From Glandiceps talaboti (lineage: Eukaryota; Hemichordata; Enteropneusta; Spengelidae): DNA of 64,000 nucleotides. The number at the start of each line of letters is the position of its first letter. Positions within the stretch are counted from its first letter, which is position 1. Below, one piece after another: positions 8,126 to 63,687 of the stretch. The stretch spans positions 4,190,803 through 4,254,802 of the forward strand of contig NC_135568.1 of NCBI RefSeq assembly GCF_964340395.1, given 5' to 3'. The notes beneath the pieces were generated by a model. The model had not been told where the DNA came from. It made no database searches and saw nothing but the letters and a program-made list of their open reading frames with translations. The translations under genes and the position numbers were made by a program.

Positions 8126-10529
8126 TGTATGTATGTATGTATGTACGTTTATCTGCCTGTCCGCCCGTCTGTCTGTAGCGATAATGTTGCAAATCTTTAG
8201 TAGCAATTTTGATATCAAATACTTTACATATTGTCGTTTCAGCGGCTTCTTTCCATAATACCTGTATGATTGTAAATGCATTCACTCACAAATCTATAGA
8301 AGAAATCGCCAGTGATGTCCCAGCTGGTTTGAGATGGCAAAACGTGTACATTTGGAAACGACGTGATATCACTAAGGGGTTGGTCGAGAGAGTGGAACAT
8401 ATAGGAAATAAAGCTATTGTTGTAACTGTTGACATCGCAGCACCAGCACCTAGATTTGATATGGGGCAATTTGACGGGTTTCCTCTACCAAGTGATTTGA
8501 GGATAGGTAGTTACGCTCCATACTTTGACAAGGCAAGTCCAGTTACTACATTGCACATAAGGTTGGGTTGGGTGGGGTGATTCTAGGTTCACTGTCAGCC
8601 ATGTTTTCCATATACTTGCCAGAAAATAATGTTATAAAAGATATCATGAAACCAATTTACTTCTATGATGACTTATACAAATTTAAATTCTTCAGGATAT
8701 TACAACATCCGGGATACAAAAACAAATTAAGGATGCTGACCCTATTGCAACATGGGAAGACATTACATGGTTAAAATCAATAACTAAATTACCAATTGTA
8801 CTGAAAGGTATTCTGAGTGCAGCAGATGCAAAGATTGCTGTTCAACATGGCGTGGACGCCATCTTTGTATCCAATCATGGCGGTCGACAGCTTGACACGG
8901 TGCCCTCTACGGTGAGTGTCACTGCAATGGTTTTCGATTGTGAGTAAGCATCAATGTTGTTCCCTTGCCTTTCACAACCTCACTACCTCTTTTTTGTAAA
9001 ATACACATGCACATTATATTACATTATACCATGCACGAGCCAGGTCAACAAAATAATATGGAATATATACTCTGGTCGTTCTACGTCAGGACAACGCGAG
9101 TTTGTGTGACAACACGTGTCTACGTCACTGGTTCTGCTGTGTTCGAAATATGAGTCAACACGTTTAAAATGGCCATGATTTTCCCCGATTTTTCTTTGAT
9201 GTTATTGGTGCTGGTATAATTATGTTATTCTCCAATATTTTTCTTCATTCAGCCGGAAAATATTCGTGACATTGGCCCCTTTTGGTCACTCGAATTTCCT
9301 TGACTGAGCTAAGAAAAGTATTGGATTAACATTTAAATACAATACAATACAATACAATACAATACAATACAATACAATACAATACAGTATTCCAGTACTT
9401 CATCACCCCTTCCCTTGTAGATAGAGGTTCTGCCAGACATCGTAAAAGCTGTTGGTGACAAGGTTGAGGTTTATATCGATGGTGGCGTTCGTACAGGGAC
9501 AGATGTATTGAAAGCCTTAGCATTAGGAGCTAAAGCAGTTTTCATTGGTAGACCGGTCGTTTACGGATTGACATATAAGGTGTGTACAGTTTATAATTCG
9601 ATTTAGTACGTTTCTGCATTAATTGAATGTGATTTCCTTTGAGTCATTGCAGAGTTACGGCCGGCTTGGCTTCCAAAATCCAATACATCAACTCGAATGC
9701 CAAGCAGATGATTTTTGTTCATTCAGAGAGGTAATATTCATGTCGAGGTTCCTTTATATCAAAGGGCAGCAAAGACGAGACTGGTTTTATTTTAAAAGTT
9801 TTTTACTTGTAGGAACTCATAAAAGTAAATTTATTGTGTGACTTCTCTAAAATGGAATTTCTATAAATGGCAGATCTGGTTTAGAAGGTATGTTGTATAT
9901 TTGGGCAAGACATTATTGTTGGGAAACAATAACCACACAATCCTGGGACAAGCTCTTACCATTGATCATTTCCCACAATACACCCCCCCCCCCGTTCATT
10001 GGGTATCTTCCAAGCCAGATGTACCGATTTGTATAAACTCTATTTCAGAGAGGTCGCACGATGCAGGGTTGGTGAAAGTGACTTTTGTAGGTCTCCTTAG
10101 CATGAAGAAACGGCTCAGATAAAAATCACTATAATTGCCTTTGTTCAATGCGTACCATGTAAGGTTCTGATTTGCTGTATGGTAGTAGTCATGTTGATGT
10201 CTTTGTGGTAATACTTGCGTAACTTAAATCGTAACAATGTTTCCCCTCTATGCTTCCCAGGGAGAAGACGGAGTAAAAGAGGTTCTCCAGATTTTAACAG
10301 ATGAATTAAAAAGTGCAATGGCGTTATCTGGTATGTGCATTTCAACAAGATCGTTAATGTTTGTTTTACACATAAAATATGTATGTACATCCATATTTGA
10401 TTTACCTATAATTAAAAAATCATCTCAAATCACACAACTTATATTCATCTTCTTTCTCTTTTAGGCTGTCGGTCGATCTCCGAAATAACACCCTCCATAG
10501 TTACGCCATCGACTATCTCAATGCTCTGA
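6032..10529 (+). CDS. HAO1-like: hydroxyacid (glycolate) oxidase 1-like, copy B, complete
   Basis: Tandem paralogue of copy A, complete at 366 residues (human HAO1 is about 370). Exons: 6032-6180, 7884-8035, 8243-8532, 8696-8911, 9421-9579, 10261-10330 and 10465-10529. The start was chosen because the exon at 6032 gives the usual N-terminus ([10 protein letters not shown], then [18 protein letters not shown]). It ends in AG|gt and joins A at 7884 to make an Arg codon. Predicted catalytic residues are Y136, D164, K234, H258 and R261. F114 stands where human HAO1 has Trp110. The intron after 8532 has the same GC donor as copy A. The C-terminus is SML, a possible weak PTS1. Coding sequence in the late part of exon 4 and in exon 5 is nearly identical to copy A, while other exons differ widely, which suggests conversion. 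The two copies could differ in chain-length preference (inference). Confidence 0.94.
6915..7010. repeat. microsatellite (CTGT)n then (GT)n
   Basis: Tetranucleotide CTGT repeats followed by a GT tract, in intron 1 of HAO copy B. Confidence 0.95.
8054..8176. repeat. microsatellite (CTGT)n/(ATGT)n
   Basis: CTGT and then about ten ATGT units in the short intron between HAO copy B exons 2 and 3, starting close to the donor at 8036. Confidence 0.95.
9028..9332 (+). repeat. interspersed repeat family 1, copy 1
   Basis: About 300 bases, opening accatgcacgagccaggt and closing with a foldback segment (ttcttcattcagccg ... gactgagctaagaaaag). Further copies lie at 27416-27756, 48746-49046 and inverted at 51464-51820. 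Partial copies lie near 3596-3700 and 26755-26960. It sits in an intron of HAO copy B. Confidence 0.75.
9335..9386. repeat. microsatellite (AATAC)n
   Basis: Ten AATAC pentamer units directly after the interspersed repeat, shortly before HAO copy B exon 5. Confidence 0.95.
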
Positions 10530-18576: not shown

Positions 18577-19007
18577 TACGTATATAGGGTGCAGAGGATG
18601 GCAGTCGAAATTCAGAAAACGTTCTCAAAGTTCCTCCGGCATTCTTCTAGTGACGAAAGAAGTGCGTAGCTTGGTTATTGTAATCGACACAGAAAGGCAG
18701 ATTGAAGTACCGCAGTTGAAAAATGGCAACTTTAAAACGATCCCACCAGTCATTTTTATACAGAGATGGTAAGCATACAAAGTTTTACTTTTAGGGACCG
18801 GACAGAATTTACGGCAGGGGGGGGGGCCTGGGGAGAAATTATCTCTGACTTGGTTTTTTTCCTGGCCCCCCCATCCACTGTGACCAAAATTTCACAGCCC
18901 CCCCCTTTCAAAAGTATAAACATTTCATGGCCCCCCCCCCAAAAAAAAGAAAAAAAGTGCACAATATCCTGTCCCCTACAATAACTAAAAAGAGTACAAA
19001 TTTTTTT

Positions 19008-19699: not shown

Positions 19700-19970
19700 T
19701 AACTATCTAATGTCAGACATTTGTGATGTCATGAAGTGCTAGCAAACTAAGGATTTTATGCACACTGAGGTCTGACAAATATAGCTTTCACTTTCCTACA
19801 CCAAATGCATTACCAATACATATGTAAATGTAAGACATTTGTGACTTCATGAAAGTGCAAAAAAATTCAGAATGTTGTGGAATACTTAGATGTAATCAAT
19901 ATGCTTTCAGTTCCAAAACCATACATATTTAAACCTATAGTGTCAGGCATTTGTGACTTCATGAAACATT
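19700..19970. repeat. three ~115 base repeats with core gacatttgtgacttcatgaa
   Basis: Related cores occur near 19712, 19831 and 19939. The last one lies inside the open frame beginning at 19877. Confidence 0.65.
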
Positions 19971-22382: not shown

Positions 22383-23049
22383 TGATTGCTATATTCACTA
22401 TTTTGGTAATGATAGCTGAGGGAGCACCAACGAATTCAGCTCATAAAGAAACAAGTAGGAGTAAGCTTACATGGAAGTTGCTGGTGAAAGACACAAGAGC
22501 GTTACTTTTTTCTATAAAGACTGCCCGCAACGGGGAACCCGTAAGTATCGCCTTCTGGCCATGGAAATATGCATTTAGTCATCATGAACAGACAATACAT
22601 AACTTCGTGATAGTTCTATGTTTTTGTCCCCGCAGCTGCTTTTCAGTAATTGTCACTCAAACATTATCGCCATGTCATTACACAGGATTCCGCCTGTAAA
22701 CTTCTTTATGTTGCGAAAGCCCACGAAACTATTCGAAAATTCAATCCGTTTCTGTACCCAATTATCACTGATGTCCACATTTGAGATTTATTTGAGTGAT
22801 CTGTACTGCTTTTTGAGTATGGAAACTATACAGTTTTAGAGACGAATCCGTGAATGGCTAATAATTATATTACATACATACTATAGGCCAGTAAAGTTAG
22901 GAAAGATTTCACACATGAAAGTTAGTGTATAAGATACAAACACAGAGGGATCAGTTATGATTACGAAAAACAATCGAACGAATTGACAGACAGACAAGTA
23001 CAGATGGACGAACAGACATACTTACACACACACGCACACACATACACAC

Positions 23050-23088
<39 letters not shown>

Positions 23089-23136
23089 TACATACATACA
23101 TACATACATACATACATACATACATACATACATACA

Positions 23137-23168
<32 letters not shown>

Positions 23169-24066
23169 AAGTATACAAAGTACACATTTCAATTGTATCA
23201 GATATGCATGTATAGCTATATGTAACGGTAACCTTTTTATTTATTTGAATTATATCACAATAGGCAATATCGGATGAACAAAATACAATTTGCAATTCAA
23301 GCTTGCCAAAACCAATATTACGGGTGGGCAATCAGGTGAGAATATTAAATAATAACCAGACTTTGCCAGAACAAAGGAAGAATTGAAGACATTTTCCCGC
23401 CAAATACTATACATTTATGAAAAACAGTGTATTAGTAAGGATTTAACTTATAAGATAGTTTCCATAAATCAAATGACCAATGAACTGTTGCCATGGCATT
23501 ACATTATTAATTTACCATTGGCATGTAGTGTTTTTGATTAATTATTCATTATCATAATTTCCTGTTGTCCATTTCAAGTGTCTACAATGATTTTATGCCA
23601 CAATTCCTTGGCGTTTCTTGTCCTTTTTTCTTGATAGACCGAGAATGAAAACAAGGATTTATTAAACAACCATAGAGACAATTTACAAGTCTATAAAGGT
23701 GTTCTGGAATCAAGGAACAACATTGCTAGTACATTCGAAGATGTTAAATATAACCTGGGACGTGTTCATGTAAAATTGAATACACTGGTAAGTGCTCAGA
23801 GTCTGTGCATGATTTTTTTTAAAGAAAGAAATGCAATCTTTTCCCAAATAATACTAAACTAAACTTTGCGGAGAATTGTTTTCACGAGTTTGAAGCTAGG
23901 AGTAACACAAATACCACGACATGAACATATCATTTATATTTGCAAAAGTGTACATCTTTGCTATTTTTTCTTTGTTTCTGTAGTTCGGAAACCTTTGATT
24001 GTAAACACACATAAATATCTACAATGAAAATATGCCTTCATTCATTCATACAGACAGACAGACACT

Positions 24067-24156
<90 letters not shown>

Positions 24157-24405
24157 TGTCTACGTAATGCTAATTGTTTTTCTTTTTTTTGTTTAAATTC
24201 CAAACAGCTCCATGATCTCTTTAACTATTTCGAATCGGACATGTCCCATAATGCAGATGCAGAGAGCGATAACGTTCAAGAACATGATGATACATGCTAT
24301 ACTATTGCCGAGGTGTTAAAACGGCTCAGAGACTACACTGTGTCTGCCAAAAGGCATTTTCTTCAGCTTAAAGCTTGTATAAGTACACACGCTAAGAAAT
24401 GTTGA
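22383..24405 (+). CDS. secreted four-helix protein, candidate class I (IL-6/CNTF-like) cytokine
   Basis: Four exons join in frame: 22383-22540, 23264-23335, 23638-23787 and 24208-24405 (TGA). All have good donors and acceptors. Intron phases are 1-0-0-0, the classical pattern of class I helical cytokine genes such as growth hormone and IL-6, and exon sizes (158, 72, 150, 198) are in their range. A hydrophobic leader (IAIFTILVMIAEGA) is followed by a helix (LTWKLLVKDTRALLFSIKTA), a loop with Cys and an NSS glycosylation site, two helices in exon 3 (DNLQVYKGVLES; FEDVKYNLGRVHVKLNTL), a polar acidic loop, and a last amphipathic helix (VLKRLRDYTVSAKRHFLQLK). There are four Cys and about 190 residues. 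NLQ.Y and the final helix resemble CNTF/CLCF1. The 5' exon is not seen: either it carries more residues, or it ends in A and splits the ATG. Exons are very likely real; the cytokine call is inference. Confidence 0.75.
23023..23166. repeat. microsatellite (ACAG)n then (ATAC)n
   Basis: In intron 2 of the cytokine-like gene, about 100 bases before its second visible exon. Confidence 0.97.
24049..24153. repeat. microsatellite (ACAG)n
   Basis: About 25 CAGA units with one interruption, in the last intron of the cytokine-like gene. Confidence 0.97.
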
Positions 24406-25482
24406 ACAGGTTCAACTTAAAAAATAGATAAATGATGTTTTAATCATTACTATTTGCTCGTCCACGCCGGTAATGGCCAGTGTTCACCCTTTTCATTTAT
24501 TGATAATCAGTGCACACCGCATTGAATCTACTACTGTGGTGCTCATTGGTTGATAATTTCACATGGTTGTCACGTGATGGCCATGTGTCTGATGACTAAC
24601 TATGGCAATATTTGTCACTCTGTCATTGACGTTGTCATTAAATGACCTTAAGATGATATATTATAATTAATTTATATTATTACCATTATTATTATTATTA
24701 TTACTATTGTTGTTGTTACAGTTATTTAAACTATTTTGATAAATATAAATATATTTGTATGAACAATTCATTCCATATGTGCAGCTGCAGATTTTTACAC
24801 TTTTAAATATTTTTGTGACGTGTACGAGTTATCTTTTACTGCATAGAGATAAACACCACTTTCGATTCTATACAAATTTATGAGAATAATAATTAAACAG
24901 TTTTTAATTACAAATAGTAGTGTTATTAACACTGAGTTTTGTAAAAGTTTAAAATATTTAAAATATGAAGATAATTAAATAATTTATTCATATTCCTGGT
25001 GTTAACTGTTCTACTTTCTTGGCTTGGTATGTTGTTATGCTGGACGATTTAGATATGTTAGTAAGATTTGTTTTTGATCAAAATGATTTATTTATACTCA
25101 ATGGACTCCATTGTATTCACGCTCCCTGTACCCCTTTATTTCACAAACTATATTTACCTGTGTATATTTAATACTTGTAAGTTCGACTTTGATCTGAATC
25201 TAACCATTTCTAACAAACTCGTCCACAACTACCTACAACAGTCCATCGTTATCAGATACAACAAATATGATTCACAGAACACGTAAAATCTAGTCTTAGT
25301 GACATTTTCATTTTGTGCATTATTTTCATATATTTTGGTCTTAGTGATATTTTCAATATTGCTTCATATTTTGACGTACCAGTCAAGAAGATGATCGTGA
25401 AGACTAAATGTAAATCTCGTATTTTCTCGCGGGAAAGTTTACAAACTACGTCATATCACGAGACTGCTGCAGTGAATCCAAG
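24406..25482. other. 1.08 kb between cytokine-like gene and PTPN23
   Basis: AT-rich 3' flank, with a possible poly(A) signal ATTAAA at 24892, followed by the PTPN23 promoter region. No separate gene is supported. Frames at 25068-25286 and 25313-25525 lack motifs, and the second overlaps the PTPN23 start in another frame. Confidence 0.6.
25422..25454 (+). promoter_or_regulatory. candidate E2F-like and CRE-like sites before PTPN23
   Basis: ttttctcgcgggaaag (25422-25437) fits an E2F-type site and is one base from the TCTCGCGAGA core element. tacgtcat (25447-25454) resembles a CRE half-site. Both are within 65 bases of the start codon, in locally GC-rich DNA, as expected for a TATA-less housekeeping promoter (inference). 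Confidence 0.4.
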
Positions 25483-31400: not shown

Positions 31401-34197
31401 TGTTGTTGTGATGAAAAGAAATAAAAAAAAAAGATCATTTCAACCATTTCGTTGTGTTTTCTTTGTGAAAGGTAACCGAACATGAACGAGTGTTACCACT
31501 GCACTGTAACGTGTGGCTGAGAATGACTCTCTTCCGGGTACTTGAGATTGTCGCCGTACGGAAACTAAGATGGCGATTAATACATTTCTTCCCTATATAT
31601 ATCTACCACAACTAGTACAAGTTGAATGTTGTTGACTTTGTAAATTTGTTAGAAAATTGAAATTCAAATTGCCTCAAAATTATTTTAGATCCCTAGTTTA
31701 TTTCATTCATCATTAAAATTTTCCAGGCTTACAGCTGTAAGACACTGGAATTATTTATAGCCAACCTCAAAATCCTCTTTTTTTCTTTTTCTTGTGTGCA
31801 TTTCCCAGTCATTTTTTTCTGAGATTTTGTGCAATTTTTCATAACAGTAGATTTTTGTTATAAAATGGTGACTATGGTATAAAAGTACAATACATTACCA
31901 ACTTCTGTGTAAAATGTGTTTTATAGTGAGACATCATATGAAACCACTAACCACTTTATTGCATCGCTAAAACAAAACTGCATAGTGAAGAGCTGATGAC
32001 CTGAACCACTTCTACATATCACCAAAATAAAAAATTAAATTTAAAAAAAAACAGCGGAGCTATTCTGACCGATAGGTCGCTTGTCTTTACTGTTCTTAGG
32101 GTCAAGCCCAGGAGTGTCTATTGGAAAAGTCTATGCAGGACAATAGGAAAAGTTCACTTGTTGCAAGAATTAGCCAGCAGGTTGCTGATTATTACACCCA
32201 GGCTCTACGGGGTTTAGATAACAGTAATGTGTCATCTATTATGGGATCCAGGAAGTGTAAAGAGTGGAAGAAGATTTTACAGATCAAAAATTTACATTAT
32301 ACCAGTATCTCATTTGTAAGTAATATACAGTAGTACAACGTTAAACATATAACTCAGTCTGTTCATACACACCACAGACACACACAGACACATACGTACA
32401 CACAGCCCACACTGACACAGGCATACACAACACACACAGACACATACATACACACAGCCCACACTGACACAGGCATACACAACACACACTGACACATACA
32501 TACACACAGCCCACACTGACACAGGCATACACAACACACACAGACACATACGTACACACAGCCCACACTGACACAGGCATACACAACACACACAGACACA
32601 TACATACACACAGCCCACACTGACACAGGCATACACAACACACACAGACACATACATACACACAGCCCACACTGACACAGGCATACACAACACACACAGA
32701 CACATACATACACACAGTCCACACTGACACAGGAATACACAACATACACAGACACATACATACATACACACAGTCCACACTAACACAGGCATACACAACA
32801 CACACAGAAACATACATACATACATACATACACACAGCCCACACTGACACAGGCATACACAACACACACAGACACATACATACACACAGCCCACACTGAC
32901 ACAGGCATACACAACACACACAGACACATACATACACACAGTCCACACTGACACAGGAATACACAACATACACAGACACATACATACATACACACAGTCC
33001 ACACTAACACAGGCATACACAACACACACAGAAACATACATACATACATACACACAGCCCACACTGACACAGGCATACACAACACACACAGACACATACA
33101 TACACACAGCCCACACTGACACAGGCATACACAACACACACAGACACATACATACACACAGTCCACACTGACATTGGAATACACAACATACACAGACACA
33201 TACATACATACACACAGTCCACACTAACACAGGCATACACAACACACACAGAAACATACATACATACATACACACAGCCCACACTGACACAGGCATACAC
33301 AACACACACAGACACATACATACACACAGCCCACACTGACACAGGCATACACAACACACACAGACACATACATACACACAGTCCACACTGACACAGGAAT
33401 ACACAACATACACAGACACATACATACATACATACACACAGTCCACACTAACACAGGCATACACAACACACACAGAAACATACATACATACACACAGTCC
33501 ACACTGACACAGGAATACACAACATACACAGACACATACGTACACACAGCCCACTGACAGACATACACACTAGAAGTTTGCCTAATATTGATGTTTATCT
33601 TTGACAGATGTATATGGCTAATCAAGTTGGGGAGCAACAAAAATATGGAGAAAGGGTAACGTACATACAAGCATCATTAAATAAGCATCAGGAGGCCCTG
33701 AAAATGTCAAAGGTCAGTGAATTCACCATTTTATAGTCACCTACAGCATGCCACCAATATCAGTAATCATCTAATGAGGGTATGAATGTGAACATAATTT
33801 AGTAAAGGAAAAGTTTTTAAAAAATGCAGAAAGGTAATTTAGGCAAGTTTATGCCACAGACATCAGTAATCATCTAATGAGGGTATGAATGTTAACATAA
33901 TTTGGTAAATGAAAAGTTTTAAAAAAATGCAGAAGGGTAATTTAGGCAAGTTTATGCATGACAGTGATTTTAATGAGACTTTCAATTTGTTATGTGTATA
34001 AGTGTGTACCATTCTTACCAGAAGTCTTATTTGTTGGTATATACTGTATTTCTTACAGGGTCAACATGATAGTATTGTTGATGCTTTAAAGTTTAGTGCT
34101 GATGTGATGGGAGGAAAATACAACGCTGCTAAGAAAGACAATGATTTTGTGTATCATGAGAGTGTGCCAAGTCTGGACAAAATGCCCGAGATTAAAG
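25483..34197 (+). CDS. PTPN23: PTPN23 exons 1-8: BRO1 domain
   Basis: Residues 1 to about 336. Conserved BRO1 blocks seen: EQAAVLYNLGSLHS, GMKVSCTHFQCAAGAF, LVARISQQVADYY, and GGKYNAAKKDNDFVYHESVP near the domain end. This domain binds the C-terminal helix of ESCRT-III CHMP4 and, in HD-PTP, also STAM2 and endofin (established for mammals). Introns 1, 5 and 6 are long. Intron 5 carries a 2.3 kb candidate element and intron 6 a 1.2 kb minisatellite. Confidence 0.95.
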
Positions 34198-37100
34198 GTA
34201 GGTACAGTTAGTGGGAACATTGAAATGCAATGTATTCCTCTCCAGCTGATACTGGTGATCTGTGAAGAGATTTTCTGGACATGTAAGGCACAGAGATTCT
34301 CTAAACATGCAGTACACAGAAGATTTCAGCCTCAGGAGATAATTACAAAATAATAACCCTCAGGGTGATAGTTGTCTTCTACCCTCATTTCCAGCTAATC
34401 TAATCTAATCTAATCTAATCTAATCTACTATTATTATTATTATAGAGTGCATTCCATAAAATATCTCAATGCACTTTACAAAGCACAAAATCTCCAGTAC
34501 AGTTCACATACAAAACAGGATCAAACAAAAGTCTTGTTGTAGAGATAGGTCTTAAGACCGAATTTAAATGACTGAAATGAAGTGACAGTCTGCAGGCACA
34601 ATGGCAGAGCATTAGATGCCAGAGTAATAGGTGTAAACTAGTAATACATGCACATGTAACTGAGTTTTACATTTGCTCTTAACTGTATATTGATAAAGAA
34701 GAATGTAGTAATAATAAAAATGTTTATTCACCACTAATAAAATTAACCTTAAAATAGATATATGTACAGAATGTATGGCAGAATGGATCAAGAAATAGCA
34801 AAGCTATAGTCAAGCTTGTATCCCTTCAGTGACTAACAAGCACACTCGTACTTGTAGGTGTATATATACAACATTCTAGATTGCCATAGGAACTATCACA
34901 AATAAGAAAGATTAAAAAAATGACAAAGCACAACAAACAGCAATGGAACAGAAAAATTGATACACATACAATTTCCACACTTAAGTTACGAAAATAATAT
35001 AAAGTTATACATGTGTTGACAAGTTGGCCATGCAACAGGACACGATAGATTTCTAAAGCAACCTGTCACCGTAATTACATTTAGTTGGTTAGGGTTAGAT
35101 TCCCTGGTATAGAAAGACAGGCATCATGACTAGAATTTCCTGTACATTGAATTCCTTGATGAGAGAGGAATGCAAGTCAGATTTGTCTAAAATGTATACA
35201 TTTTATCTTTTACTGCTCTGTCCACAATCACTGATTTCTATCAGATATATGGCATACAGATACCGTATATAACCTGAAACATTCCTTGCATACCATGATC
35301 ACAGTTGGCTTGTCAACTTTTGATAAGTGTTGTATCTTTATAGCACAGTGGGTTATGACCTTTGTACTCACCCCACTGTATATTTGACCTACTAGTATCT
35401 CGTGTTCAGGCCTAATAAAAAATTTGTTACCTAACCTCACCTAGTTTTCATGCTGACCCTAAATTTTTAGTCCCCGCGGACGAAGTCCGGAACGGGGACT
35501 TATGGATTGGGTTCCGTCTGTCCGTCCGTGCGTCCGTCCGTCCGTCCGTCCGTCCGTAGCCGTTTCTTGGAGATGCCTGTACCGATTTTTTTCAAACTTG
35601 GTACAGGGGCAACATGCTATGGCATACATATGCACGTCAATTTGTTTTATGATACGATCCAATATGGCCGCCTAGCAGCCATTTTGTTTGCGAATTTTCC
35701 CTGTCTAAAGCCATAACTCAGACATGCTCACACAGATCTCATTCAGAGTTGGTATTAGGACAGTGTTCTATGGCATATATGTGCATATTCATTGTTGTCA
35801 TGATACGATCCAATATGGCCGCCTGGCAGCCATTTTGTTTGTGAATTTTCATGTCCAAAGCCATAACTTAGACATGCTTGAACAGATCTCATTTAAAGTT
35901 GGTATTAGGACAGTGTTCTATGACATACATGTGCATATCCATTTTCATTGTGATACAATCCAATATGGCTGCCTGGCAGCCATTTTGTTTGCAAATTTTC
36001 CATGTCCAAAGCCATAACTCAGACATGCTTGAACAGATCTCATTCAAAGTTGGTATTAGGACAGTGTTCTATGACATACATGTGCATATCCATTTTCATT
36101 GTGATACGATCCAATATGGCCGCCTGGCAGCCATTTTGTTTGTGAATTTTCATGTCCAAAGCCATAACTTAGACATGCTTGAACAGATCTCATTTAAAGT
36201 TGGTATTAGGACAGTGTTCTATGACATACATGTGCATATCCATTTTCATTGTGATACAATCCAATATGGCTGCCTGGCAGCCATTTTGTTTGCAAATTTT
36301 CCATGTCCAAAGCCATTTCTCAGACATGCTTGAACAGATCTCATTCAAAGTTGGTATTAGGACAGTGTTCTATGACATACATGTGCATATCCATTTTCAT
36401 TGTGATACGATCCAATATGGCTGCCTGGCAGCCATTTTGTTTGCAAATTTTCCATGTCCAAAGCCATAACTCAGACATGCTTGAACAGATCTCATTCGAA
36501 GTTGGTATTAGGACAGTGTTCTATGACATACATGTGCATATCCATTTTCGTCATGATACGATCCAATATGGCTGCCTGGCAGCCATTTTGTTTGTGAATT
36601 TTCCATGTCCAAAGCCATAACTCAGACATGCTTGAACAGATCTCATTCAGAGTTGGTATTAGGACAGTGTTCTATGACATACATTTGCATATCCATTTTC
36701 ATATTGATATGATCCCCCATACCCGAACAATCCTTTCTTGTTGTAGGCATGTTCCATGTCCGACAAGCAGACACAACATATCTAAGTCTGTTTGATTTAG
36801 GTTCACAAGTGTTGTTGCGTGATCAGAGTAGTGCTAATTCCTTAAAACCCAATCATAGCGGGGACTATGTCATTCTCAATGGCTTGTATTTACTTATTCA
36901 AGAAAAAAATAATAAAAGTTGTGAAGTCTCACAGAGTGGATGCGGAAAATCAACTTATAAAGACAATATAAAACTGTTCTTCCAATATGTAATGACTGTA
37001 CATCTGATGGGGAGAAACCAATAACACAGAGAGACCATATGGAAAACAATGGAAAACATAATTACCCAAACTAGACATTCACATATGAAAAAAATATATA

Positions 37101-44846: not shown

Positions 44847-47800
44847 CCAACTCAACAACAGCAAGCTTCTCAACAAGGACCTCAGCAGATACAGGCATCT
44901 CAACAGCCAGTAACCCAACAACAACAACAATATTACAGCCAATCTCCTCAGCAGCATTATTCGCCAAAACACCAACCCTACCAGCAGCAACAAGTTCCCA
45001 CTCAAGTTAATCCATCATCGCAGGCTTTACCACAAGTACAGCAAACTCAGACTCCTTACCAGCCAAGCTCAACACCACCACCACCACCACAGTCTTTCCA
45101 ACCAAGTAATGCAACACATCCCTCTCAGCCACCACAAGGGACTTATCCTCAATTCCAGCAGCAAGCCCCTCTTCAGCCGCAAGGACAGCCTGTATATCCA
45201 CAACAGCAGCAGCCTGCTCAATTCCAACAACCTCAGCCATCTCAGACAGTACCTGATTTTGCCAGAGAACAAGAAAGGCTTCCCCAGCCAACTATTCAAC
45301 CCATTAAAGCCGACAGTATTACAAAACCATCTCCTGATCTGCTGTCAACAAGTCCTGATGGCAAGAACACTTTAACACAACAGCCACCAGCACTAGTTCC
45401 AAATGTAGTCCCTCCTGACAGAGGTAGTAGAGGTGCTGCATCTTTTGAAGAAATGCCAGCACCACCACCAGTGAAAGTTGATCCATATGAAAACAAGGAT
45501 GTTCTTGATCACTTTCTAGAAGAGGTTGAAAGGTTTGAGAAGCATGTAGATACACTAAATAAGCAGACACTAAGTGGTCCCACTATACTGGACAGAGAAT
45601 GGAAGGTAAGAATTAACCCATAGGTGGTCAAATACTGCACACAGTGACAGTTTTTGATCTAATTTGTTGCATTGCCAGTCCACAAATATATGATATGACA
45701 GAACCATACAACCAAGGTTTGGTTGTATGGAAAGTGTAGTCAATGCAACATTGTTATAATTGAACCAATCATCATTGGTTTGCTTTTACTCTTTTAGTAT
45801 ACCATTTTAATACTGAATCCGTCGTTGAAAAGATTTTTCACATGTATCATAATTATGAGCTAAGTATGTTACAGTGTATCATTCTCATTGGATTCACTAA
45901 TAAGTTATCCAATCGCCACAAGGTTGTTGTGTTTAGTAAACAGGTCATGAGTAAAGATTTGATATCAACATTTGTTTTGACTACTGTGTAAAATGTCATC
46001 ACCTATAGTAATACAAAGTTGCAATGACAGTCTCAAAAAAAATACTACAAACTCAATAAATCGGCGCCATGGCACTAACTGAGCGACGTTATCAAAGGAA
46101 AAAACCAAAGGTTGTTTCAATTATAACGATGTTGCATAGACTTCACTTTCCATACAACCCTGATCTCTGTTGTTTGACACGAGTGCCAGTGTGGTATACA
46201 TGGGGTATTTACACAAGTAAGGTGATTCAAAAGCATAAGTGCATACAAATGCCTAGACTGATGCTCAAGTATGTGTATCATCATTGTCGTTGTCGTCGTC
46301 ATCGTCGTCATCGTCATCATCATCATGTACCATCAAGTCGGTCTTGTAATTCTTCCTTCATAGTCCAAGTCTCTGAACCATATAAAGAGTATGGGTTCTA
46401 CATTTGCTCTGAAAAATGCTATCTTTGTTGACCTGGTTATGTTGGACTTCCAGATGGTATGTAACTTGTTGCAGGCATTCCATGCTTGACCTTTGTGAGA
46501 CATGAAGTCCTTGTTGCTGTCAGCTATATAGGATCCAAGATATTTAAACCCTCTTTGAGTTGAGTGCAGTCCCTGGAAGAGATTGCATCATGTATCATGA
46601 GGTTGTGTAGATGTTATCAGAGACTGCAATTTTCAAAAAGTACAACTGTACATCGATGTGATTTTGTGTAAATGGAAGAACAGTGTGTTTATTTGTATAC
46701 AGGTATACAATGATATATTCAGCATTGCATATTGTTTTCAGTTTTATACTTCAGTTCAAATACTAATAGTACAAATGTATGAGCACACTCTGATGCGCGG
46801 TGAAATCTCAAGTTATATATGTTATGTTATTTGCTACGTACATTGTATACCCATGAAAGTATCACTCATAGTATACCATATACATGACAGGCATTACACT
46901 TTGTAGTGATTAATTTCTTGTCTGTCACTAGGACTTATCTGACTGTCAACAGAAGGAGACAAAGCAGTATTCTATTTCCATTGCCAGGTGTTACTCTCTA
47001 AAGAACAGAAACCCAGATATTATGCCATGTAAGTTAATATACTACTCAAGCAGTTAAAGTCTTGGTTTACTAACAAAGATGCAAACCCAAACTATTGTCA
47101 CAACATGTATTTGGAATAGTTTTTGATGTCATTGTACTCACAGAAGGGTACCATTTCTGATACATGTATTATCTTGCAATGTTCATTTTTAGGGATATTA
47201 TCATACATTATCTTTTTCTTGTTAAGTTTAAACTTTTCAATTTCCAACACAACTGACTCTTGGAAAGCTGTGTCTGAAGCTTTCGTCCTCTCACTAAGGA
47301 CTTCATCAGCAGACTGAAGTAATTAACATGAATTAACAGAGTGTAAATGATAATCTGTGTTAGTATTTAGGAATGGTTTTTCTTTCTCCAACCTATTTAT
47401 TCATTCTGTATGAACACTTACTCTTCAGATGATCACTGCAGGGTGACAATCACATCCAAAGATGATGATTACATCAATGCTAGTTGTTTAGACGATCTAA
47501 CTCCGTCATCTCCAAGGTTCATCGTTGCCCAGTCACCAGTACCTGCCTCTATCAATGATTTCTGGATGATGATCTACGAACACCAGATTTCTGTTGTTGC
47601 TATGCTACTCTCTTATGATGAAGCAAACAAGGTTAGTTTATGATTAGAGAACAAAAGTTTTATTGCAACTGTCATGTCATCAATTTGTAAACATTTTTGC
47701 CAGCTGATGAAAAGGGAACGGATTGCAAAATGTGTCAAGTAAATGGTAGTGTCACAATGTGATTTAGTCTAGTTCCTATACAATATCATTATGATTTATA

Positions 47801-59011: not shown

Positions 59012-62000
59012 ATGATTGGGTTGATTGTTTTGATACTTCAATTGTTTGGACCACTGGTATTTGTTGTGCCTACTGAAGGTAAGACAAACTACATATTGTA
59101 TGTTTGACACAGCCCCTCCCCTGATGCATGTTTGACACACCCCCTTCCCCGATGCATGTTTGGCACCGCTCCTCTTCCATCTGCATGGATATCAGTGTTC
59201 CGTAAACTACAAAGTCGATTATAAATATATTTAGTCTGATACAGTGATAAGGGAGTGCTATATACACACACACACACACACACACACGAATTCGACTTTT
59301 AAATATTGCCTTTGTTTGACCTTTGTGACATTTTGCGTTATATATGTATTCGGTTTACTTTTTACCCAGGTACAAGAAATGTGGGGGTTGGTAAAGATAT
59401 TGATATTGGTGGTGGCACCGTTATTGATGGTTTACCTTCTAATGCCGTGGATGGTGATGACTCTACCTGTATTCACCTTGAAACTGCAGCTGGTACCTTA
59501 CCATTGTTGACCATTGACCTTGGGAGAGAAGATAGATCCGTACATCGGATAAATAAAGTTGTCGTTAAAAACAAATGGGATTTCACTGGGCAAGGTATGC
59601 AAACTATATACCATAAGTTTTTAAAGTTCTATTACAGTATAAACGGGGTTGGTGTGGGTGTTTTCTTAACTTATGAGACATGATATCCTTTCATACATCT
59701 ACACACAACTGTAGACTTAAAAGAGATTATCATATCTGAGTTACAGCACGGTTTGGATGTGAACATAGACATACAATCAAAGGCCTTATACTACTGTAAC
59801 AATATAACAGTTGTCTCTCAATCCACTCAATATATACATCATCAGAGCCAAGTATTGTGTTACATTGAACGCATCGCTCTGCTCACAATCCTTAGATGTG
59901 ATTTCGATCACTATTTGTGCTGCGGGTGTATGACATCTTTCAGTCGTTAAGTTTTTACTACTGTCAGTAAGTTGTGAATAGAGTAGCGTTTATTGAAATC
60001 CGACATTTATCAGAAACTTGGATACATTTTATAAAGCAGTTTATATATATATATATAGTTTGTAATTAACTCATTTGACCAAATTGTCACACTTTTTGAA
60101 ATCAAAATTACACTTGAGAGACCTGTGTTGGTAATAAATAAAACATGTTACACATATTTCATTAAAAGGTATGCACATCAACATTTATTTTAACAATGGA
60201 TTTTTTTACACTATATTTTGCCAATGTTATCTTTAAAACCTTCAATTTTACGCGTGAGATCAGATATTGTTTAGATTATTTTCAACAAATATTCATAAAT
60301 AATGTTGAAACGAACGGACATCGCAGTCCAACAACCATTTTTCTGATGTTTACGACCACATGAAGGTGTATTGCCATCACACACGCACACTCACACACTG
60401 TTTGCTAGTTACACGTTTCCTAGGTTACTTGTGATAAAACCTAATTTCCCATGATCCGATGACCATACGAAATGAAAAGTTTCCCTTGTCGTTGTTTTTG
60501 TAGGAATGCATCAGAGTATAGTTCCTACACAAGAGGTCTATGATCAGAAACGACGGCAAAAACACCAGTAATAGCTACCCGATAACATTAACGTTTAGAC
60601 TGCCTAGTACTAGTAGACAAAAAAAATCTTCCACGCTACACTTTATTGTTTTATTTACAGTCATGTGTTCTAATAGTTCCCAATATTTTTGTTGCCGTTC
60701 AACACATAGAGCAATGTTATATTATTTCATCGATGCTAGCGAACTTCATACAATATATACTTTTATATTTATATTTATAAAAAATAACTGATTTTTTTTA
60801 TCTTTGGAAACAGATTGTGGGCTTGAGGTGCCGCAATTCAAGTTGAATAACGACTACGGATACGGGTGGGATCTATGGTCAGCAACCTATGATTATTTAA
60901 ACAACGAGTGCTGTGATCTCTGTAGAAGCAATCCAGATTGTAAATCATGGTCTGTTTACAATGCTGACTGTTTTCATTCATCTACAACATCAATGTCCTA
61001 TTCGGAAATTGCAGATTCAATATATTTTCTTTACGGTATGTACACTTCTAGTCATAACTGTAATCTACACAGTCATATATGAGAAAAATGAGATACATTG
61101 ATATTATACTATGATATGTACACTTCTAGTCATAACTGTAATCTACACAGTCATATAAGAGAAAAATGAGATACATTGATATTATACTATGATATGTACA
61201 CTTCTAGTCATAACTGTAATCTACACAGTCATATAAGAGAAAAATGAGATACATTGATATTATACTATGATATGTACACTTCTAGTCATAACTGTAATCT
61301 ACACAGTCATATAAGAGAAAAATGAGATACATTGATATTATACTATGATATGTACACTTCTAGTCATAACTGTAATCTACACAGTCATATATGAGAAAAA
61401 TGAGATACATTGATATTATACTATGATATGTACACTTCTAGTCATAACTGTAATCTACACAGTCATATAAGAGAAAAATGAGATACATTGATATTATACT
61501 ATGATATGTACACTTCTAGTCATAACTGTAATCTACACAGTCATATAAGAGAAAAATGAGATACATTGATATTATACTATGATATGTACACTTCTAGTCA
61601 TAACTGTAATCTACACAGTCATATAAGAGAAAAATGAGATACATTGATATTATACTATGATATGTACACTTCTAGTCATAACTGTAATCTACACAGTCAT
61701 ATAAGAGAAAAATGAGATACATTGATATTATACTATGATATGTACACTTCTAGTCATAACTGTAATCTACACAGTCATATATGAGAAAAATGAGATACAT
61801 TGATATTATACTATGATATGTACACTTCTAGTCATAACTGTAATCTACACAGTCATATAAGAGAAAAATGAGATACATTGATATTATACTATGATATGTA
61901 CACTTCTAGTCATAACTGTAATCTACACAGTCATATAAGAGAAAAATGAGATACATTGATATTATACTATGATATGTACACTTCTAGTCATAACTGTAAT

Positions 62001-63687
62001 CTACACAGTCATATAAGAGAAAAATGAGATACATTGATATTATACTATGATATGTACACTTCTAGTCATAACTGTAATCTACACAGTCATATAAGAGAAA
62101 AATGAGATACATTGATATTATACTATGATATGTACACTTCTAGTCATAACTGTAATCTACACAGTCATATAAGAGAAAAATGAGATACATTGATATTATA
62201 CTATGATATGTACACTTCTAGTCATAACTGTAATCTACACAGTCATATTAAGAGAAAAATGAGATACATTGATATTATACTATGATATGTACACTTCTAG
62301 TCATAACTGTAATCTACACAGTCATATTAAGAGAAAAATGAGATACATTGATATTATACTATGATATGTACACTTCTAGTCATAACTGTAATCTACACAG
62401 TCATATAAGAGAAAAATGAGATACATTGATATTATACTATGATATGTAACTCTTCAATTATTTCCATCATTAGATACAGAATGGTATACAGTTTTCGATG
62501 ATTTATTTTTTATTGTTTATGTCTTGTCAGCAGGGATTTGACCTCAAATCCCCGCCGAGTCGAACACTAGTTCTCAGAAAAGCTGTGTTCTCGGGGTGGT
62601 CCTTTTTTATCTCCTATTTTCTCATGACTCGATGGATCCTATATTTCTAAGATTCAGTGAAAAATAATTTTACAAAAATACCAGAAATAATTCAAAACAA
62701 TATTTATTATAAATCAATTATTGAATTAATTGTTAAATTAGTACGATGGCAATGATGTTAAAATGGCAACATCACAAGTGCGTGTCTAGGCGACAGTTAT
62801 CATCTCAGACTACTATAGAAAAAAGTGGTCTGAGTAATTGTCTATCGCAGTGGCTGTACTTGAGGTTCTCTTACATATGCAAATGATTTACTGTGTGTTG
62901 ACATCAGTCATTATTTCAAGGTCATCCACCCATTTACTTATAAAAGAACAAGTATTACGGACAGTTACTTTGTTTTTTCCCCCCCCATTTTTAATCAGCG
63001 GAACGACCGATCGTTTAAAGGTGTTATAACAACAAAATATGAAAAAGGTTGCCTTAGCAACGTTTACCAGTTTGAAGCCATTGTCATATATTTACAGGGT
63101 CTTTGAATATAGTAGTCTTTACAATTTCACATTTGGCCGTTAAACAATTCATTGGAAATTATCACTTCAGCACAGAGTGATGAAGGAATCTTGAGGATTT
63201 TAACAGAACTTAAATACCCCCTCCCCCCCCCCCCTCCATACAAAAAAATGTTTGCTTGTTGATATTTGGTAGAAATGAGTTCAAATGTAAAAAACCATGT
63301 AAATAGTAATTGAAAATACCACATGATAATTACCATGTATAGCAAAGTGTACATGCTGTTACATTGGCTTTTGTGGAGACGGGTTTTAATGATCAGTTTT
63401 CCAGTTTAAGGTTCCAGTAAAAATTGTCTAATCATAAAAATTTGTCTAATACCTCTTTCCAGATGATGGTGGCTGGACTTCAATATTCATGTATGGTGCA
63501 ATTATACGTGCTGGAAACTCATTAGACATCAGTTCTAATCCAGTCTGTGGAGAAGAAGTTGCTTTAGACAACACTACTAATAGTAACCTTGAGTTCCCAT
63601 GCAATGATAGATTTGGACGATATGTCAGTATTGAACAGAGTGGTACATACAGTCAGCTGAGGGTCTGTGAAGTCGAAGTGTATGCAG
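59012..63687 (+). CDS. secreted fucolectin-type (F5/8-like) protein with inserted PAN/Apple domain, 3' partial
   Basis: Four phase 1 exons: 59012-59078, 59370-59594, 60814-61035 and 63463-63687. The gene continues beyond the window (donor after 63687). Exon 1 gives a signal peptide (MIGLIVLILQLFGPLVFVV). Exon 2 is the N-terminal half of a fucolectin/tachylectin-4-type fold (NVGVGKDIDIGGGTV, SNAVDGDDSTCIH, LPLLTIDLG, NKVVVKNK). Exon 3 is a PAN/Apple-like module (NECCDLCRSNPDCKSWSVYN). Exon 4 is the C-terminal half of the fucolectin domain (GAIIRAGNS, NPVCGEE, GRYVSIEQSG, LRVCEVEVYAG). The role would be extracellular carbohydrate (fucose-type) binding, for example innate recognition (inference from family). 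The HXRXR fucose-site residues are not obvious, so binding is unproven. Two orphan copies of exon 1 lie at 13.3 and 16.4 kb on the opposite strand. Confidence 0.82.
61036..62447. repeat. 78-base minisatellite starting at a splice donor
   Basis: About 18 near-identical units (gatatgtacacttctagtca, taactgtaatctacacagtc, atataagagaaaaatgagat, acattgatattatactat). The first unit begins exactly at the donor of the PAN exon (gtatgtacacttc). Variant atatatgag recurs at units 1, 5 and 10, hinting at higher-order duplication. Confidence 0.97.
62448..63462. other. intron remainder of the lectin-like gene
   Basis: AT-rich intron DNA with a poly(C) run near 62982-62988 and another C-rich run near 63220-63237. 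No exon or element was recognised. Confidence 0.5.

Follow-up and report, generated by a model that had tools for sequence, protein, structure and literature searches.

The locus described here, four exons on the forward strand of a window of 64,000 nucleotides from the acorn worm Glandiceps talaboti, probably encodes a hemichordate class I (long-chain) helical cytokine of any subfamily, a reading of the sequence to which we assign a probability of roughly 0.68. It is favoured by the exon anatomy, by the shuffle tests against IL-11, by a cysteine layout nearly like that of growth hormone (GH) and by a sub-threshold Pfam match to IL2.

The four exons are bounded by GT-AG introns throughout and splice in frame to 191 residues that follow a split first codon. 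This agrees with the protein of about 190 residues proposed by the sequence-only reading, whose exon sizes of 158/72/150/198 and intron phases of 1-0-0-0 were reproduced exactly. Since no in-frame ATG was found 5' of the leader at exon 2, the gene must have either an upstream exon 1 or a start codon interrupted by an intron. Two unproven candidates for the missing exon 1 are given in Table 1, and further ones exist, none of them compelling. In the putative 3' UTR (24406-25400), 11 ATTTA motifs were counted compared to a null mean of 5.9 (P 0.035), along with 2 nonamers compared to 0.42 expected (P 0.08), which calls to mind the AU-rich elements found in cytokine mRNAs.

Table 1. Features of the locus (window coordinates) and copies of the secreted receptor-like protein (contig and position).
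Feature	Position	Strand	Remarks
Exon 1 candidate, unproven	18723-18768	+	MATLKRSHQSFLYRD/V; phase-1 donor; consensus match only
Exon 1 candidate, unproven	19805-19829	+	MHYQYICK/L; phase-1 donor; consensus match only
Exon 2 (first recognised coding exon)	22383..22540	+	leader remainder and putative helix A; phase-1 acceptor, phase-0 donor
Hydrophobic leader core	22383..22423	+	VIAIFTILVMIAEG; first codon split, V assumed; from translation and hydropathy
Putative helix A	22460..22528	+	SKLTWKLLVKDTRALLFSIKTAR; aligned with IL-11 segment LLADTRQL
Exon 3	23264..23335	+	A-B loop, Cys63 (23291-23293), sequon N64-S-S
Sequon N76-Q-T	23330..23640	+	formed across the exon 3/4 junction, split by the intron
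Exon 4	23638..23787	+	putative helix B (23650-23724, includes NLQVYKGVL), start of putative helix C (from 23731)
Exon 5	24208..24405	+	end of helix C, C-D loop, putative helix D (24292-24381), Cys157/Cys184/Cys192, stop TGA
ATTAAA polyadenylation-like motifs, putative 3' UTR	24637, 24892, 24974 (span 24637..24979)	+	
Secreted receptor copies L011-L017	C6:20015502, C10:3201579, C10:3371794, C10:13643390, C10:13667030, C23:13371756, C31:53176		

The genes of GH, IL-6, G-CSF and EPO comprise a short exon 1 followed by a phase-1 intron and three phase-0 introns, with an exon 2 of about 146-191 bases and an exon 4 of about 147-180 bases, and IL-11 shows the same five-exon 1-0-0-0 plan. Exons 2 and 4 of the locus, with 158 and 150 bases, fit these ranges. 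The phase pattern claimed as typical of class I cytokines is thus in line with all five genes, but it is not exclusive to them: for IFNL2/3, a short first exon ending in phase 1 and then phase-0 introns are reported (PMC2654155), so that the phases alone do not exclude a class II cytokine.

The four-exon locus is very probably a real gene. In each of the four exons, the true frame scored better than the two alternatives on the forward strand under a codon model, for which 8640 bases of presumed coding sequence from this genome and the window served as the training set; the total was modest (+14.9 bits) and exon 3 came out slightly negative (-2.1 bits). The splice donors reach 7.0, 11.5 and 11.0 bits, while the acceptors of exons 3 and 5 are weak with 2.7 and 3.0 bits. 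A simple gene finder was run at three settings, the thresholds of the third being lowered after the site scores were known. At the first setting the region scored 53.4 with a chain that reproduced exons 2 and 4 exactly, left out exon 3 and changed exon 5. Scores as high occurred in 3 of 300 Markov nulls and, among 32 further tiles of the window, in 3, some of these tiles being possibly genic. At the second setting, with stricter sites, two true acceptors (exons 3 and 5) were lost and the full chain was not returned; here the region scored 19.7, which was equalled or exceeded by 37 of 2000 nulls, and its tile ranked 67th of 226 window tiles. With the loosened thresholds of the third setting and two simple repeats masked, the best chain consisted of exactly the four exons (score 40.0). 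None of 1500 nulls was as high with codon scoring and 5 of 1500 with length-only scoring, whereas 14 of 1500 reached at least four exons plus at least 570 coding bases. If the repeats are left unmasked, the last exon extends back into a repeat (24058).

A search of the 590 Mb genome (47 contigs) with the protein as query revealed no second gene copy, the other matches showing E-values of 1.1, 2.4 and 5.6. The first of these (L005, C16:4697381-4697575) resembles helix D, but comprises an in-frame stop and was not counted as a paralogue. With a run of N upstream, it could be a decayed paralogue or a chance match.

The leader expected from the sequence-only reading was recovered in part, its hydrophobic core being present. 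Cleavage likely occurs before APTNS, which would result in a mature protein of 178 residues, within the 160-210 residues of secreted class I long-chain cytokines. Four helix-prone stretches (A-D) were observed as described before, but in within-segment shuffles only helix C was clearly and significantly amphipathic (P 0.005), compared to 0.05 for D, 0.16 for A and 0.22 for B. Four cysteines were read directly, as anticipated, at residues 63, 157, 184 and 192 (numbered from the split codon as 1). Instead of the one N-glycosylation site reported previously, two sequons were found, N64-S-S and N76-Q-T.

Database searches gave no significant homologue. In the protein database none of 26 candidates reached E<=10, and the PDB search showed nothing significant, with cytochrome c nitrite reductase (E 0.73-0.77) as the only match. 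No Pfam family exceeded its cut-off; the sole match was IL2 with an E of 0.0029 and 18.0 bits compared to a cut-off of 26.2, spanning the leader and helix A. Detection by sequence is hard among class I cytokines in general, as can be seen for IL-6 and G-CSF, whose mutual score amounts to only about 12-13 bits. Using hhalign with profiles of two or three members (IL-11/G-CSF/IL-6, CNTF/CLCF1/CTF1 and GH/PRL), each of the three picked a segment at the corresponding place, with E-values of 0.14-0.22 that are not significant compared to 0.30 for a globin control. Of the CNTF/CLCF1-like segments noted earlier, the one in helix D was picked by hhalign, at an E of 0.14.

Among 27 pairwise targets IL-11 was the best, a match that is weakened by this multiple testing. 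Over four settings it ranked first, second, first and second (z 6.0, 4.0, 6.9 and 4.2), being outranked by IL-3 in both BLOSUM62 settings; since IL-11 is an IL-6-family cytokine, an origin in this family is possible. In Smith-Waterman comparisons with BLOSUM45, BLOSUM62 and PAM250, 1, 48 and 0 of 8000 block shuffles scored as high against IL-11, as did 3, 23 and 0 of 2000 shuffles that keep the hydrophobic pattern. The alignment is collinear across helices A, B and C and ends before D. GH, whose comparison sequence was verified like that of IL-11, was in most settings the long-chain cytokine ranked behind IL-11 (z 2.1-2.9), with 69, 300 and 228 of 8000 block shuffles as high for the same matrices; its alignment pairs the A-B loop cysteine and the C-terminal cysteine region. 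No pairwise signal was obtained from IL-6, G-CSF, EPO, LIF and CLCF1. The maximum z was 1.2 for CLCF1 and 1.0 for IL-6, while CNTF showed 2.1, -0.1, 0.4 and -0.7 over the four settings and was thus no better than shuffles with matrices other than the first. The four-setting test was performed without eight of the 27 proteins (PRL, OSM, IL-12A, IL-15, IL-4, GM-CSF, cytochrome b562 and HBA), none of which exceeded a z of 1.3 in the 27-target comparison. The noise of these values has to be considered: with BLOSUM45 a z above 3 was reached by 11 of the 78 class I pairs, but also by 1 of the 52 helical-control pairs, and with PAM250 apoE reaches 4.1 and reversed G-CSF 5.1. Altogether, the proposal of an IL-6/CNTF-type ligand holds as far as a class I cytokine is the best-supported assignment, whereas its CNTF/CLCF1 label was rejected as over-specific, the segment match being not significant and the pairwise scores lying at noise.

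In agreement with the receptor expected for such a ligand, gp130-like class I receptors were found in the same genome. The query was a consensus of eight human receptor domains; 150 of 272 candidates were scored, loci were taken for the best 30, and eight plus five loci were read, the many matches in the fn3 arrays at C22:11.88-12.19 Mb and C7:16.01-16.04 Mb being set aside. The former, on the window's own contig, is a long array of fn3 exons, presumably titin-like. An interpretation of the PF09240 matches as repeat-element artefacts was dropped, since their open frames read as receptor-like proteins. Among the loci read, two kinds resemble class I receptors, namely genes with split exons on C7 and a secreted Ig-CHR-fn3 protein. 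The three C7 loci (L048-L050) all contain exons of the type PxPP...W..P.DW...F.L.YKLQY, two of the three contain CxW or paired-Cys exons, and a GHWSAWS exon occurs in L048 and a GHWSSWS exon in L050. Joined by eye, the exons of L050 matched gp130 (E 8.8e-17), followed by IL-27 beta, PRLR and GHR, while those of L049 matched PRLR with 4e-13 and gp130 with 4.6e-8.

The secreted protein comprises 421 residues in one uninterrupted frame, with a signal, Ig, CHR and fn3 domains, no membrane anchor and GSWSDYG in place of WSxWS; its best PDB matches were gp130 (3.4e-12) and CRLF1 (5e-12). It was found at seven equal-scoring places on four contigs (Table 1), and the five copies read were near-identical. 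Four copies that were compared lie in duplicated blocks, with 6.5-9.1 kb aligned at 97.6-99.99% identity, one of which also holds a galactose-3-O-sulfotransferase (PF06990, 3.5e-77) and a mucin-like open frame. A possible explanation would be a recent segmental or mobile spread of a putative decoy or carrier receptor. As to intracellular signalling, a JAK FERM exon on C14 showed 35.4 bits for FERM_F1 compared to a cut-off of 26.1, its frame matching JAK2 (PDB, 9.3e-10) and TYK2; a second FERM match on C8 is barely at the cut-off and contains a stop. With PF02864 no match was obtained in the genome at a limit of E<=0.001, and the search was run again with E<=10; C17 holds three STAT-domain matches, collinear within 4 kb and each below cut-off. 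The receptor domains, the JAK FERM exon and the STAT-like exons together indicate that the receiving side of class I signalling is largely in place.

One alternative, itself a subset of the class I reading, would place the protein within the IL-6/CNTF/CLCF1 family proper, with a gp130-like chain as its signalling receptor. The NLQ.Y and LK.L..Y...F..LK segments can be read, the second being aligned by hhalign, IL-11 as a member of this family leads the pairwise targets, and gp130-like receptors occur beside a CRLF1-like soluble chain. The noise-level z of CNTF, CLCF1 and IL-6, a gene anatomy unlike that of CNTF and CLCF1, the more GH-like cysteines and a C7 receptor nearer to PRLR than to gp130 nonetheless make this family doubtful. 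A class II helical cytokine of the IL-10/interferon-lambda type could also bring along the intron phases, as described above for IFNL2/3, and IL-10 reaches a z of 2.9 with BLOSUM45 and 2.5 with PAM250. This falls to 1.9 and 0.5 in the BLOSUM62 settings, however, and genes of the IL-10 family comprise an extra intron near the C-terminal helices, whereas the last 198 bases of the locus read as a single exon; a class II protein is therefore very unlikely.

A secreted helical protein specific to the lineage and no cytokine at all, for example a mucus or defence protein, would be consistent with the lack of a significant homologue in the protein, Pfam and PDB searches and with the weak amphipathicity of helices A and B. 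In this case, the intron phases, the distribution of cysteines over the exons and the collinear similarity to IL-11 would all have to be coincidence, which renders it unlikely. That the four exons form no functional gene, being open by chance or remnants of a decayed one, could be argued from the low codon score, the two weak acceptors, the missing exon 1, the full chain being absent in two of three gene-finder settings and the length-only chains of the nulls. The codon-scored nulls of the third setting, the strength of the donors and the preference of all four exons for the true frame point in the other direction, and such an artefact is considered highly improbable.

The mechanism proposed for the class I cytokine follows from its assumed class membership. 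The exons, the open frame and the leader core are directly seen; the protein would be secreted, disulphide-bonded and N-glycosylated, and is expected to fold into an up-up-down-down four-helix bundle. Directly seen are also the extracellular domains of the receptors, the JAK FERM exon and the collinear STAT-like exons; the ligand would bridge two of the class I receptor chains, gp130/PRLR-like, encoded in the genome, whereby the attached JAK would be brought together and STAT activated. The protein may descend from a common ancestor of several subfamilies (IL-6/IL-11, GH/PRL and EPO). That it represents an ambulacrarian cytokine from the stem of these branches, with gp130/PRLR-like receptors as its partners to this day and possibly a secreted CRLF1-like chain as well, is given an even chance; in that case the ligand, not the receptor alone, would predate the split of chordates and ambulacrarians.

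The neighbourhood of the locus and other contigs gave additional observations. On the 3' side, a gene read as PTPN23/HD-PTP-like extends from 25483 (start MEAVPRM) to beyond 47467, with a Gln/Pro-rich open frame of 1073 codons and a tyrosine-phosphatase-like exon at 47467; a pattern scan found no HCSAG motif, and a frame near the gene showed a sub-cutoff match to the ALIX V-domain. On the 5' side lie two similar exons of the FMN-dehydrogenase type (hydroxyacid-oxidase/HAO-like) at 882-1334 and 8185-8580, possibly tandem duplicates. Repeats in the window comprise a 78-base satellite with 18 copies and 99% match (61037-62448), a 151-base repeat (35617-36715) and a 52-base repeat (32373-33554). 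The mitochondrial contig C40 contains three COX1 copies 15,435 bases apart, which is an assembly concatemer, with LSU rRNA before SSU rRNA on the forward strand. In the matched part of COX1, TGA encodes Trp 13 times, AAA, AGA and AGG are absent, all four Lys are AAG, and Ile is expected at two of four ATA sites. None of these three codons occurs in the frames interpreted as COX2, COX3, ND1, ND2 and ND3, while longer frames around ND4 (2 AGA, 1 AGG) and ND5 (2 AAA, 2 AGG) contain some, possibly outside the genes. The absence of AAA is known for mitochondria of the acorn worm Balanoglossus, and by this codon usage the animal is very likely an enteropneust hemichordate.

Invertebrates are known to possess class I receptors, JAK and STAT, but few of the corresponding ligands are known. 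According to a 2026 survey, IL-6 family cytokines occur in vertebrates only, the exceptions named for invertebrates being insect Upd and a lectin-type ligand of a crustacean, and IL6R-like receptors are placed in Saccoglossus and sea urchin (PMC13203501). In a 2022 review, a type-I helical cytokine gene is given as undetected in acorn worms and sea squirts, both termed urochordates there (PMC9010856). Among the matches listed from the open-licence PMC literature, there was no report of a hemichordate class I cytokine. If its fold is confirmed, the locus would fill the ligand gap of the acorn worms with a known kind of cytokine in a new phylum. With ligand and receptors in one hemichordate genome, the origin of the system becomes testable by binding assay, and the locus can serve as a query for orthologues in echinoderms and other animals.

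Compared to known cytokines, the cysteines resemble those of GH, which has C53 in exon 3 and C165, C182 and C189 in exon 5; the same distribution over these two exons is seen at the locus. The cysteine of putative helix D, however, lies 27 residues before the next one, compared to 17 between C165 and C182, which places the first exon 5 cysteine 10 residues further upstream. The last two cysteines are 8 apart as in PRL, compared to 7 in GH. The locus has the C-terminal pair common to both hormones, and its exons of 158 and 198 bases come close to their approximately 161 and 198 bases, although the match to the GH/PRL profile is not significant. With IL-11, IL-6 and G-CSF the locus would share the five-exon 1-0-0-0 plan and the order of helices, NLQVYKGVL resembles their GL..[FY]...L signature, and for IL-11 the similarity is collinear over helices A to C. 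It differs in the cysteine layout and in the shorter A-B loop exon of 72 bases, and shows no profile-level match to this group. CNTF, CLCF1 and CTF1 have similar short segments in helices B and D, but their genes comprise only two or three coding exons and the similarity is not robust. Among invertebrates, amphioxus GH-like (GHl) is described in the 2022 review as a type-I helical cytokine that comprises 208 residues and shows little identity to the vertebrate families (PMC9010856); by this description it would be another such cytokine of an invertebrate deuterostome, from a chordate instead of a hemichordate. Likewise by its description, Drosophila Unpaired (Upd1-3), in the 2026 survey a JAK/STAT ligand with a gp130-like receptor (PMC13203501), is comparable to the acorn worm protein proposed here.
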